38,490 nt of DNA from Isoptericola halalbus (GTDB taxonomy: Bacteria > Actinomycetota > Actinomycetes > Actinomycetales > Cellulomonadaceae), in NCBI GenBank assembly GCA_009663185.1, contig VJZX01000020.1:1-38490 (forward strand), given 5' to 3'. The notes beneath the pieces were generated by a model. It saw only the letters and a program-made list of their open reading frames with translations, was not told the DNA's origin and did no database searches. This document shows positions 1,486 through 20,844 of the stretch, one piece after another. The position numbers and the translations under genes were made by a program. Positions within the stretch are counted from its first letter, which is position 1; each line of letters begins with the position of its first letter.

Positions 1486-2433
1486 ATGAGCAACTCCACC
1501 CCCGAGCCGAGCATCAGCACGCGTGGCGCCGTCGACCTGTCGGCGCTCAACCGGACCCAGTCGCCGCCCCCGGGTGAGCCGGGCGGTGCGCCGTCGGCGG
1601 GCGGGTACGTGCTCGACCTGACGGACACCAACTTCCAGCAGGTCGTTCACGACTCGACGACGTACCCCGTGGTCGTGCTGCTCTGGATCCCGACGGACCA
1701 GGCGAACGCCGAGCTGGGCGCGCTGCTCGGGAGGCTGGCCGACGAGTACGCCGGCCGGTTCCTGCTCGGCCGGGTCGACGCCCAGGAGTACCCGCAGATC
1801 GCCGCGGCGTTCCAGGTCCAGGGCGTGCCGACCGTCGTCGCGGTCCTCCAGGGCCAGCCGCTGCCCCTGTTCGCGGGCGCGGCGCCCGAGGATCAGGTCC
1901 GCGGCGTGCTCGACCAGGTGCTGGCCGCCGCAGAGCAGAACGGCGTCACGGGCCGCGCGCCCGCGCAGGGTGCGGAGGGCCCGGCGTCCCCGGGGGAGGT
2001 CGAGCCGGCCGAGGAGCCGCTGCCGCCCCTGCACCAGGAGGCGTACGACGCGATCCAGCGCGACGACCTCGACACCGCGGCGGCCGCGTACGAGAGGGCG
2101 ATCAAGCAGGACCCCAGGGACGCGGACGCCGTCGCCGGGCTTGCGCAGGTGCGGCTCATGCAGCGCACCCGTGGCGCCGACCTGCAGGCCGTCCGCACGG
2201 TCGCGGCGGACGCGCCGGCCGACGTCGACGCTCAGCTCGCGGTCGCAGACCTGGACCTGTTCGGCGGGAAGGTCGACGACGCGTTCGCGAGGCTGCTCGA
2301 GCTGCTGCCCGACGCCGACGCGGACGGCAAGGAGAAGCTGCGCGTGCGGCTGCTCGAGTACTTCGAGGTCGTCGGCCCGACCGACCCGCGCGTGGTCAAG
2401 GCGCGCCAGCGCCTGGCGATCAGCCTGTACTGA
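1486..2433 (+). CDS. Thioredoxin-fold/TPR protein, CnoX (YbbN)-like, without redox cysteines
   Basis: 315 residues. A Pro/Gly-rich N-terminal segment (about 1-40) is followed by a thioredoxin-like domain (about 41-160: YVLDLTDTNFQQVV, then FQVQGVPTVVAVLQGQPL with the cis-Pro of VPT). After a Pro/Glu linker comes a helical TPR-type C-terminal region (about 180-315, HQEAYDAIQRDDLDTAAAAY and following). The usual WCxxC site is replaced by WIPTD (residues 67-71) and that site has no cysteine, so disulfide chemistry is excluded there. In the CnoX family such proteins act as holdases or co-chaperones; that role here is inferred. A TAGGAT hexamer 6 nt upstream suggests leaderless transcription, although the preceding gene is only 25 nt away. 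Confidence 0.85.
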   Translation: MSNSTPEPSISTRGAVDLSALNRTQSPPPGEPGGAPSAGGYVLDLTDTNFQQVVHDSTTYPVVVLLWIPTDQANAELGALLGRLADEYAGRFLLGRVDAQEYPQIAAAFQVQGVPTVVAVLQGQPLPLFAGAAPEDQVRGVLDQVLAAAEQNGVTGRAPAQGAEGPASPGEVEPAEEPLPPLHQEAYDAIQRDDLDTAAAAYERAIKQDPRDADAVAGLAQVRLMQRTRGADLQAVRTVAADAPADVDAQLAVADLDLFGGKVDDAFARLLELLPDADADGKEKLRVRLLEYFEVVGPTDPRVVKARQRLAISLY

Positions 2434-2448: not shown

Positions 2449-2513
2449 GCAACGAGCGTGCTGGCTCTTTCCCCAAACCGGCGGTTTGGGGAAAGAGCCA
2501 GCACGCTCGTTGC
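2449..2513. repeat. Perfect 65-bp palindrome, type A copy 1 (possible bidirectional terminator)
   Basis: Two 32-nt arms (2449-2480 and 2482-2513) are exact inverted complements around one central base. The outer ends are GCAACGAGCGTGCT and its complement. It lies 15 nt after the thioredoxin/TPR stop and 57 nt before the glgB stop, between convergent genes, so its RNA hairpin could end transcription both ways. There is no flanking T-tract. A diverged copy of the same element lies inside moeB at 20538-20604, so it is a dispersed repeat and not only a terminator. Confidence 0.9.
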
Positions 2514-2570: not shown

Positions 2571-4847
2571 CTACTTCGGCACCAGGATGAGCGCGCCGAG
2601 CGGCGGCACACGGAGCGACACCGAGTGCGACCGGCCCTTCCACGGCACGGGCTCGGCCGTCACGCTTCCGAAGTTCCCCACGCCCGAGCCGCCGTAGACC
2701 TCGGCGTCGCTGTTGAACGCCTCGACCCACGTGCCGCCGTCGGGTAGCGCGAGCCGGTAACCCTCGTGCGGGAGGCCCGCGAAGTTGACGACGACGACGA
2801 CGGGCCGGCCCTCACGGTCGCGGCGCACGTACGACAGCACGTTGTGGTCGGCGTCGTCGGCGTCGAGCCACTCGAAGCCGCCCGGGTCGAAGTCGCGCTC
2901 CCAGAGCGCCGGCGTCGCGCGGTAGAGCCGGTTGAGGTCGCGCACGACGCGCTGGATGCCCGCGTGTGCCGAGTTCTCGAGCAGCCACCAGTCGAGGCCG
3001 ACGCCCTCGTTCCACTCGGCGTCCTGCGCGAACTCCTGACCCATGAACAGCAGCTGCTTGCCGGGGTGCGTCCACTGGTACACGAGGAACGCCCGCACGC
3101 CGGCGAGCTGCTGCCACCGGTCGCCGGGCATCTTGCGCAGCAGCGAGCCCTTGCCGTGCACCACCTCGTCGTGGCTGATCGGCAGCGCATACTGCTCCGA
3201 AAACGCGTACACGAGCGAGAACGTCAGCTCGCCGTGGTGGTAGCGCCGGTACATCGGGTCGTGCGCGACGTACCGCAGGCTGTCGTTCATCCAGCCCATG
3301 TTCCACTTGAGCCCGAACCCGAGGCCTCCGGCACTCGTCGGACGCGTGACGCCCGGGAACGCCGTCGACTCCTCGGCGATCATCATGACGCCCGGGCTGC
3401 GCCGGTACGCCGTCGCGTTGGTCTCCTGCAGGAAGCTGATGGCCTCGAGGTTCTCCCGCCCGCCGTGCACGTTGGGCACCCACTCGCCCTCCTCGCGCGA
3501 GTAGTCGAGGTAGAGCATCGAGGCGACGGCGTCGACCCGCAGCGCGTCCGCGTGGAACTCCTCGAACCAGTACGTCGCGTTGGCGACGAGGAAGTTGCGC
3601 ACCTCGCGCCGCCCGAAGTCGAAGACGTAGGTGCCCCAGTCGGGCTGCTCGCCCTTGCGCGGGTCGGCGTGCTCGTACAGCGCGGTGCCGTCGAACCGCG
3701 CGAGCGCGAACTCGTCGCGCGGGAAGTGGGCGGGCACCCAGTCGATGATGACGCCGACGCCAGCCTGGTGGAGCCGGTCCACGAGGTACCGGAAGTCGTC
3801 GGGGTGGCCGAATCGCGCCGACGGCGCGTAGTAGCTCGTGACCTGGTAGCCCCAGGACCCGCCGAACGGGTGCTCGGCCACCGGCAGGAGCTCGACATGG
3901 GTGAACCCCTGCTCGGTCACGTAGTCGGTGAGCTGGTCGGCCAGCTCGCGGTATCCCAGCCCGGGTCGCCACGACCCGAGGTGCACCTCGTACACGCTGA
4001 TCGGGCCGTTGTGCGGGTCGCGCGACGCGCGGGCCGTCATCCACTCGAGGTCGCCCCACTCGTACTGCGACTCCACGACGACGCTCGCGGTCGCGGGCGG
4101 GACCTCGGTGCCCTTGGCGAGCGGGTCGGCCTTGGCGCGCCACACGCCGTCGGCCCCGAGGATCTCGTACTTGTAGCGCATGCCGGCGCCCACGCCGGGG
4201 ACGAACAGCTCCCACACCCCCGTCCAGCCGAGCGAGCGCATGGGGTGCACCGGCGTCCAGCGGTTGTGGTCGCCCACGATTCGTACGCCGCGCGCGTTGG
4301 GCGCCCAGACCGCGAACGACGTCCCGTGGATGTCGCCGAGGGCGCTCGGGTACCGGGTGAGGTTCGCCCCGAGCACGCGCCACAGCTCCTCGTGCCGGCC
4401 CTCGCCGACGAGGTGCAGGTCGACCTCCCCGAGCGTCGGCAGGAAGCGGTAGGGGTCGTCGGTGGTCTGCACGTCGGTGCCGTAGCGGGTGCGCACGCGG
4501 TAGTCGGGCGCGTGCCTGGCGCCGTCGTCGTCCGTGGGCGCGGGCAGGACGGCGGTCCACACGCCTGCGGCGTCGTGCGACGCCGTGTACTCGCCGTCGG
4601 TGGTCACGACGACGACCTCGTCGGCGAGGGGGCGCAGCGTGCGTACGACGGCCCAGGAGCGGCCGTCGCCGGTGTCACCCATGAGGTGCGGGCCGAGCAC
4701 GGCGTGCGGATCGTGGGTGTTGCCCTGCGCGACCGCCGTGAGCACCTCGGTGTCGACGGCCGGGGCGGGCGGCGGGGCCGAGGGGCGCGGCGCTGCCCCG
4801 GCCGGGTCCTGCAGGGGCTGCGGGTCGTGGTAGCGGCCGGACGTCAT
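2571..4847 (-). CDS. glgB: 1,4-alpha-glucan branching enzyme GlgB
   Basis: 758 residues, a GH13 enzyme that cuts alpha-1,4 chains and re-attaches them by alpha-1,6 bonds. Domains in order: a Pro/Ala-rich lead, an N-terminal beta module (about 50-150), a CBM48 module (about 160-260, [20 protein letters not shown]) and the (beta/alpha)8 catalytic domain. The domain has [19 protein letters not shown], the nucleophile region [19 protein letters not shown], the acid/base region [13 protein letters not shown] and the transition-state stabiliser [16 protein letters not shown]-terminal beta domain ends at LGALILVPK. The ATG at 4847 is chosen because GAAAGGTGATC lies just upstream; an in-frame ATG at 4904 has no such signal. 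It is last in the glgE-treS-mak-glgB series and is separated from mak by the inverted array at 4991-5146, so it may have its own promoter there. Confidence 0.96.
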
Positions 4848-19758: not shown

Positions 19759-20844
19759 GTGGCCGCGCTCGACCCGCTCGTGCCGTCCGGCGCGCCTCTG
19801 GCGCCGGACGAGCGACGGCGGACGGCGCGGCACCTGCTGCTCGAGGGCTTCGGACCGGAGGCACAGGCGCGGCTGGGTTCCGCGCGCGTGCTCGTGGTCG
19901 GCGCGGGCGGGCTCGGCTCGCCCGTGCTGCAGTACCTCGCGGCGGCCGGCGTCGGGACCCTGGGCGTGATCGACGACGACGTCGTCGACGAGTCGAACCT
20001 GCAACGCCAGGTGGTGCACGGGGCGGCCGACGTCGGGTCGCCCAAGACGGTGTCGGCCGCAGCCGCGCTGCGTTCCCTGCGGCCTACGGTGACCGTCGTC
20101 GAGCACGCCGTCCGGCTCGACGCGTCGAACGCGCGGTCGCTGCTCGACGGCTACGACCTCGTCGTCGACGGCTGCGACACGTTCACGACCCGCTATGCGG
20201 TGTCCGACGCCGCGGCCGCGCTCGGCCTTCCCGTGGTGTGGGGCAGCGTGCTGGGCTGGGACGGGCAGGTCAGCGTGTGGTGGTCGGCCGCGCCCGACGG
20301 GCGGGCCATCACCTACCCGGACGTGTTCGGGCCGGCTCCCGCCGAGGAGGGTGAGACGTGCGCGACCGTGGGTGTGCTGTCGCCCGCGTGCGGCGTCGTC
20401 GGCGCGACCATGGCCGTCGAGGCCGTGAAGCTGCTCACCGGGACCGGCGACGTCGCGCTCGGGCGGCTGCTCGTGTACGACGCGCGGACGTCGTCCTGGG
20501 ACTCGATCGACCTCGCCGCTCCGGCCACCTCCTCGGATGCAACGAGCGTGCTTGCTCTTTCCTCAAACCGCGCTCTTGAGGAAAGATCCAGCACGCTCGT
20601 TGCACCGCAAGGAACGCTCGTGCTCGACGTCGGACCCGCGCCGGGCGCAGCGTCGCCCGGCTCCGTGTGGGTCAGCCTCGAGGACCTCGCCGCGGGCGAG
20701 TACCCGCCCGAGCTGTCGGGGCACCCCCGGGACGCGCCCGTCGTCGTCGTGTGCGCGCAGGGGCTCCGGTCGCGCGGCGCGGCGGCGCTGCTCACCGCCG
20801 AGGGCTGGACCGACGTCCGCCCCGTCGCCGCCGCGCGCCGGTAG
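19759..20844 (+). CDS. moeB: MoeB/ThiF-type adenylyltransferase with C-terminal rhodanese domain, interrupted in frame by a palindromic element
   Basis: 361 residues. It should adenylate the C-terminal GG of MoaD; the rhodanese tail supplies sulfur as in MoeZ-type proteins. The ATP site is VLVVGAGGLGSPVLQYLAAA, followed by DDVVDESNLQRQV. The adenylyltransferase cysteine is in GETCATVGVLSP (Cys201). The rhodanese-like domain has VVVVCAQGLRSRG (Cys332). The two CxxC zinc pairs of E. coli MoeB are absent (ITYPDVF replaces the first; there is no CPVC). Residues 261-282 are encoded by a 66-bp palindromic element placed exactly at the domain junction. The start is GTG 19759, 4 nt after etfA. moaD lies opposite, convergent. 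Confidence 0.9.
   Translation: MAALDPLVPSGAPLAPDERRRTARHLLLEGFGPEAQARLGSARVLVVGAGGLGSPVLQYLAAAGVGTLGVIDDDVVDESNLQRQVVHGAADVGSPKTVSAAAALRSLRPTVTVVEHAVRLDASNARSLLDGYDLVVDGCDTFTTRYAVSDAAAALGLPVVWGSVLGWDGQVSVWWSAAPDGRAITYPDVFGPAPAEEGETCATVGVLSPACGVVGATMAVEAVKLLTGTGDVALGRLLVYDARTSSWDSIDLAAPATSSDATSVLALSSNRALEERSSTLVAPQGTLVLDVGPAPGAASPGSVWVSLEDLAAGEYPPELSGHPRDAPVVVVCAQGLRSRGAAALLTAEGWTDVRPVAAARR
20538..20604. repeat. Palindromic element type A copy 2, in frame inside moeB
   Basis: A 67-bp inverted repeat with arms of about 29 nt and two mismatches. The ends GCAACGAGCGTGCT and AGCACGCTCGTTGC are identical to those of the intergenic copy at 2449-2513. Bases 20539-20604 make exactly 22 codons (starting ATSVLALSS, ending SSTLVA), so the moeB frame is kept. 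The insertion lies between the adenylyltransferase and rhodanese domains. Confidence 0.9.

Follow-up and report, generated by a model that had tools for sequence, protein, structure and literature searches.

A palindrome in frame in Isoptericola moeB, its dispersed family and a candidate AbiEi-nuclease partner gene

Introduction

In a 38,490-nucleotide stretch of Isoptericola halalbus DNA (contig VJZX01000020.1, hereafter the window), a near-perfect palindrome runs in frame through a moeB-like gene, which raises the question of what kind of element this is and how it could have come to lie within a coding sequence. An earlier note on this DNA likened it to the Rickettsia palindromic elements, repeats that, according to PMC10969869, lie between genes in some places and are read in frame as peptide inserts in others. 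REPs offer another comparison: according to PMC3733652, these are dispersed palindromes found mostly downstream of genes, between convergent or same-direction ORFs, and sometimes in frame inside modular proteins; the paper also describes a dedicated gene that such repeats enclose, and REP classes that have no dedicated mobiliser. Since in-frame REPs in modular proteins are already on record there, the moeB insert taken by itself would be a curiosity. The main pattern in our data is the placement of such palindromes at gene 3′ ends together with their pairing with genes of an AbiEi-REase family, and its nearest analogue is the REP/RAYT system.

Results and discussion

The palindrome in moeB

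Only two palindromes in the window score at least 17 on our own scale, the copy in moeB (23) and an intergenic one that begins at position 2449 (32); when the window was shuffled five times in two-base blocks, the best palindromes scored 17 and 13, and the remaining three fell below the floor of 12. The two copies are 88% identical and represent the same element, as the earlier note had proposed (Table 1). Its further claim of an in-frame peptide at the junction of the adenylyltransferase and rhodanese-like domains was also borne out, 66 of the 67 nucleotides in moeB forming exactly 22 codons (ATSVLALSSNRALEERSSTLVA). The numbering of these residues as 261-282 holds if translation starts at 19759; with a start at 19780 they become residues 254-275. 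Structure-model confidence (pLDDT) is below 50 for MoeB residues 249-270, so the insert sits in a linker without predicted structure.

Table 1 Features of the window discussed in the text
Feature	Position	Strand	Remarks
Thioredoxin/TPR gene	1486..2433	+	3′ end towards the 2449 copy; G093 orthologue 90% identical
Solo palindrome, 65 bp	2449..2513	.	Between convergent genes, 15 bp past the left stop codon
GlgB-like gene	2571..4847	-	Convergent, to the right of the 2449 copy; G093 orthologue 92% identical
moeB-like ThiF-rhodanese fusion gene	19780..20844	+	Start uncertain, alternative 19759; from Pfam and orthologues
ThiF adenylyltransferase domain	19825..20529	+	Pfam ThiF, residues 16-250
Palindrome, 67 bp, near-perfect	20538..20604	.	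Solo copy of the CGAGCGTGC-type element
In-frame codons (22), ATSVLALSSNRALEERSSTLVA	20539..20604	+	The palindrome's share of MoeB
Rhodanese-like domain	20656..20820	+	Residues 293-347; 21.2 bits, just under the Pfam cut-off of 22.2

The closest named relative of the protein is from Isoptericola sp. RH59_bin.012 (80%). Homologues lacking the 22 residues had been predicted in the event of an insertion, and the element is indeed absent from all six readable congeneric MoeB orthologues (the G091 sequence, which would be a seventh, runs off its contig and was left out); a search of the seven MoeB loci for the element gave nothing beyond two 12-bit matches. The linkers of the six orthologues are nevertheless not 22 residues shorter, measuring 49, 51, 57, 50, 57 and 81 residues against 53 in the window, so that any insertion either replaced sequence or was followed by a loss. 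Judged from these alignments, the inter-domain linker is hypervariable, with the window's 53 residues inside the orthologue range, and the element is most simply read as a newcomer in a freely varying linker.

Two neighbouring observations concern the same region in other genomes. G086 is without this moeB, and a copy of the element (L269:3001-3065) lies there between the convergent ends of a ThiS-family (moaD-like) gene and an ETF-alpha-like gene, the place that moeB takes up in the window. G084 has a moeB orthologue, and behind it comes a palindrome of a second, TTCGGCA type (L165:1080-1139).

A dispersed family in the genus

Many genomic copies were to be expected of a dispersed element, and the window's genome holds 15 copies of a near-perfect palindrome of about 65 bp (30 matches over both strands), found with a covariance model made from the 14 places first located by DNA similarity. 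By this model, copies are present in 17 of the 18 genomes of the Isoptericola-like genus, with none in G093. A sample of 150 genomes of the family, screened with stricter filters, yielded 16 with matches: 15 of the genus and G099, from another genus, whose match is marginal (E 6e-4). We read 141 of the 142 listed copies with their flanks and analysed 138, three in G085 being assembly duplicates.

The copies are 58-67 bp long as called, and 88 of the 138 measure 65 bp, which is not a multiple of three. Compared by eye with the GTAG or CGTC end tag of REPs, those of the window's genome mostly end in GCAACG..CGTTGC, and some in other genomes end in CGTCGC. Mean identity between copies is 0.779 between loci of one genome, 0.766 at orthologous loci and 0.725 otherwise; copies within a genome are thus little more alike than orthologous ones, which weighs against the spread of copies proposed below.

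The idea of the half-palindrome as a free uptake-type signal was dropped, as all 14 near matches in the genome fall inside palindrome copies. G042 and G089 carry a near-identical copy with near-identical flanks (L238:3001-3065 and L281:3001-3065), possibly a recent transfer; G089 has only two copies.

Placement behind genes and hairpin structure

Placement was scored from genes called by codon usage, with a caller of our own that took known genes as seeds and whose stops are surer than its starts. By these calls, 70 of the 136 copies outside genes occupy convergent gaps, 60 same-direction gaps and 6 divergent gaps, whereas element-free gaps of at least 65 bp at the same loci number 17, 132 and 108, respectively (convergent against the rest, Fisher p about 1e-23). 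The copies lie close behind genes, at a median distance of 15 bp from the stop codon with quartiles of 10 and 24 (200 distances). Their arms pair at 84.2%, a figure slightly favoured by choosing the centre of each copy for best pairing, against 69.5% when arms are swapped within a genome and 56.3% when they are swapped between genomes; the arms have thus changed together. The element hairpins are strong, and in copies read by eye with their flanks we noticed no U-run behind them.

Strong hairpins with arms kept paired, just behind stops and between convergent genes, would also be found if the palindromes were immobile, conserved and bidirectional 3′-end structures (terminators or mRNA stabilisers) under selection, the link to AbiEi-REase genes then reflecting ordinary gene-end hairpins. 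The copies form 91 locus clusters, and the 30 of these that are common to two or more genomes fit such conservation, but the other 61 are each confined to a single genome. Further points against it are that sequence-specific families are common to unrelated loci and that copies occur inside coding linkers, where termination would harm. Together with the evidence from gene pairs and loci given below, these make immobile hairpins an unlikely explanation.

Among the 138 copies, only the one in moeB is convincingly inside a gene. A copy in G088 was likewise called intragenic, most likely through a misplaced start, since it lies 12 bp behind the preceding stop; with two of 138 copies so called and one of them a probable miscall, frequent in-frame insertion into ORFs, as in the Rickettsia elements, was not observed. 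A called gene reaches into the element in 13 copies. Seven of them are entered by the AbiEi-REase gene, which ends 41 bp inside, so that in seven genomes the 3′ copy supplies about its last 12 codons and stop; at four further copies a called gene ends 21 or 41 bp inside the element.

The likeness to Rickettsia elements drawn in the earlier note is therefore partial: intergenic and in-frame forms both exist, but intragenic copies are exceptional. An element of that kind, inserting in frame into genes, would account for the moeB copy, for the gene ends supplied by copies and for the in-frame copies of the second family in two genomes, described below. It accords poorly with the single convincing intragenic copy, with a moeB linker no longer than those of the orthologues and with a prevailing length not divisible by three, and we hold it to be very improbable.

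A gene bracketed by two copies

In seven genomes, the window's own among them (G000 C45:124294-125455), two copies bracket a unit of about 1.16 kb in the order palindrome, gene, palindrome. The gene codes for a protein with an AbiEi-like half fused to a Vsr/homing-endonuclease-like domain. The N-terminal half matches Pfam AbiEi_4 (PF13338; 37.4 and 26.9 bits, cut-off 25) as well as PADLOC AbiEi models, the nuclease-like half has a weak match to Pfam REase_MTES_1575, and fold matches were obtained to the AbiEi antitoxin 6y8q and the homing endonuclease 3r3p. The nuclease-like domain has a PD-(D/E)XK-like fold with conserved acidic residues, E212, D245 and D261 being invariant and E259 nearly so in 45 aligned proteins; sequence searches of NCBIfam and PDB with this protein returned nothing informative. 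By its domains and folds, which are AbiEi- and nuclease-like, the flanked gene is not an HUH/Y1 tyrosine transposase. It is the single gene between the palindromes, and in the CGAGCGTGC units an AbiEii nucleotidyltransferase toxin beside it is absent. The protein family is widespread: of 246 genomes sampled from the class, 150 have a match at E 0.001 or better.

The neighbours of the unit, with names checked with Pfam, are ThiG and ThiF, or an ABC transporter with a SURF1 or GyrI-like gene. Rfam searches of five unit loci found a TPP riboswitch alone, which lies upstream of thi genes near the unit (L195:626-729).

In 16 of 22 units, the right edge of the upstream palindrome falls between -128 and -147 relative to the model start. 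A distance so nearly constant would suit an operator, and, according to PMC7319586, the promoters of AbiEi antitoxins contain inverted repeats to which the antitoxins themselves bind; the protein might then autoregulate through the flanking pair and control a regulon marked by the solo copies. The second palindrome of the unit, however, lies over or behind the gene's stop codon, the solo copies lie at 3′ ends with few of them between divergent genes, and the nuclease residues are conserved, so that we regard operators as an improbable account of the palindromes.

Gene-specific palindrome pairs

To compare the family more widely, a genus-wide protein search with locus retrieval was used, which gave 59 near-full-length distinct AbiEi-REase genes. 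An upstream palindrome was present at 26 of these, a downstream one at 42 and a matched pair, defined as two palindromes at least 60% identical, at 21, leaving 38 without such a pair. For 462 control genes the counts were 50, 171 and 4, with palindrome windows measured from the called start rather than, as for the family genes, from the profile start; in two of the four control cases the pair consists of adjacent copies of the CGAGCGTGC-type element itself. The 171 controls with some downstream hairpin favour the view that hairpins are an ordinary feature of gene ends, but the matched, gene-specific pairs, at 21 of 59 against 4 of 462, count against it.

The paired palindromes differ in sequence from gene to gene across the family, and the units they delimit are 1142-1310 bp long (22 units whose pairs are at least 55% identical). 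For five orthologous units, end-to-end identity within a unit averages 0.84 (one only 0.68), higher than the 0.68-0.70 obtained when the same end is compared across species. Protein identity and palindrome identity are correlated (Spearman 0.386, 43 genes, 0 of 999 permutations). In other families of the class, a strict test found matched pairs at 1 of 29 genes and a relaxed test at 6 of 29, compared with a mean of 0.74 and a maximum of 4 in 200 shuffles; one of these six, L387, is doubtful, its upstream palindrome being far away. The relaxed test applied to genes of the genus gave 44 pairs in 76 (shuffled mean 10.6, maximum 19 in 200), a result that we keep out of the main evidence because some of the loci had been fetched by palindrome.

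A second palindrome family

A model of the TTCGGCA palindrome has matches in all 18 genomes of the genus, among the matches listed. Four listed pairs about 1.09 kb apart, at places without a previously known gene, all proved to contain an AbiEi-REase gene (4/4), one of which was matched only over profile positions 88-281 plus a small fragment; a fifth pair, 1.55 kb apart, contains none. Palindrome spacing thus predicted genes, which speaks against hairpins held in place by selection. A family gene was present in 10 of the 43 loci fetched around TTCGGCA palindromes.

Placement of 29 TTCGGCA copies put 14 between convergent genes, 12 between same-direction genes, 1 between divergent genes and 2 in frame in PxpB-PxpC fusions. 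The in-frame copies (G072 and G089; L402:1501-1560 and L418:1501-1560) lie between the two domains, and both of their arms are changed. The earlier note's view of one repeat in two states, non-coding DNA and in-frame peptide, is thus upheld by the moeB copy with its intergenic relatives and again by this second family.

A further palindrome type, GAGATAG..CTATCTC, was seen behind the ThiF stop (L174, L175, L171), at the ThiG/ThiF junction; several lie in a row in G086 and G088.

Occupied sites, empty sites and copy numbers

The CGAGCGTGC unit lies between the ThiG and ThiF genes in G000 and G091 and adjoins an ABC-transporter gene near a SURF1 gene in G083, G085, G058, G021 and G081; one clade of units therefore occupies two loci. 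At the ThiG/ThiF site of G072 there is a decayed relative of the gene (one internal stop) with a single element copy and, on the other side, what by eye is an inverted repeat of a different type. Across 15 genomes read by eye, the ThiG/ThiF junction holds the gene in 3, a TTCGGCA palindrome in 2, a GAGATAG-type palindrome in 3 and none of these in 7. The 2449 site is empty in G093, where the orthologous gap is 74 bp, compared with 137 bp here, a difference of 63. No target-site duplication was readable, the flanks at empty sites being too diverged. Presence and absence, together with one unit type at two loci, support mobility, and the two loci, one of which is unoccupied in other genomes, are at odds with fixed 3′-end hairpins.

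On the other side, a common neighbour was seen for 56 of the 81 gene pairs that are at least 58% identical; most related units thus retain their surroundings, which counts against frequent movement. Genomes without a cognate gene carry up to 14 copies with arm pairing of 0.844, against 0.841 with the gene, which indicates that the gene is not needed for palindrome upkeep, as would be the case for hairpins conserved in their own right. The proposal that presence of the gene makes for better-kept palindromes was rejected on these figures. Copies per genome are somewhat more numerous with the cognate gene, at 4-18 vs 0-14 (p 0.04).

Interpretation and relation to known systems

We consider it rather probable that the palindrome in moeB belongs, as a solo copy, to a REP-like family of palindromes of about 65 bp, and that the AbiEi-nuclease unit of about 1.16 kb is its likely autonomous form, spreading the copies. 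The AbiEi-like part would bind the palindrome, as AbiEi antitoxins bind inverted repeats, the nuclease-like part would nick or cut at or near it, and repair or transposition would then copy the palindrome elsewhere. Copies behind stop codons may survive because they are harmless, or useful as 3′-end hairpins. A copy that landed in moeB would have met a disordered, hypervariable inter-domain linker in the frame most often open in copies: counted from the outer GCA, the frame used in moeB is open in 108 of the 138, compared with 92 and 55 for the other two. MoeB could in this way have kept its reading frame, with part of the old linker lost at insertion or later.

So described, the system works like REP/RAYT but fails in their defining feature, a tyrosine transposase as the flanked gene. 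To our knowledge, where a dedicated mobiliser has been proposed for REP-like repeats, it is a tyrosine transposase of the RAYT type. The likeness to REPtrons and TIRtrons, as portrayed in PMC3733652, extends to dispersed palindromes that are mainly extragenic at gene 3′ ends, to a dedicated gene flanked by the same palindromes and to occasional in-frame copies. The differences are that AbiEi-like and Vsr-like nuclease domains make up the partner protein where RAYT is an HUH/Y1 tyrosine transposase, that the palindromes measure 58-67 bp compared with 20-40 bp for REPs, and that paralogues here have palindromes of their own.

Other systems resemble this one in parts. Rickettsia palindromic elements share the intergenic and in-frame forms, according to PMC10969869, whereas wholly intragenic copies here are rare, shorter and in inter-domain linkers. 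The N-terminal half of the protein is like an AbiEi antitoxin of type IV toxin-antitoxin systems by Pfam, PADLOC and the 6y8q fold, and the arrangement differs from AbiE in its one gene between palindromes, with no AbiEii toxin there, and in its fused nuclease-like domain. Unlike I-Bth0305I-type (EDxHD/Vsr-like) homing endonucleases, the gene is bracketed by palindromes. As with MITEs, there are short non-autonomous repeats and a possible autonomous parent with the same ends, but here the whole solo element is one palindrome; no target-site duplication could be read at the diverged empty sites.

The new part is the palindrome-bracketed AbiEi-REase genes; in the open-access literature, we found no paper on palindromes paired with such genes. 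That these represent a new class of mobile DNA in Actinomycetes, in which AbiEi-nuclease fusion families, each with its own long palindrome, seed solo copies at gene ends and occasionally in linkers, a REP-like system around a non-HUH enzyme, seems to us an evenly balanced proposition. If it is true, a second, unrelated type of enzyme associated with palindromes would mean an independent origin of the REP-like lifestyle, and a function would be suggested for the widespread AbiEi-REase proteins. How palindromes are copied, and why they end up behind genes or between domains, can be tested directly in this system.

Probable assembly joins at palindromes

Two assemblies show irregularities beside palindrome copies. 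The contig ends of G085 overlap by about 16 kb (L285, L286, L287), and one copy recurs in reverse at the extreme end, which is probably an artefact of assembly at the palindrome. In the window's own assembly (L033:4190-4419), an N and a duplicated ThiG end adjoin the palindrome that precedes the unit, which probably reflects an assembly join at the hairpin.
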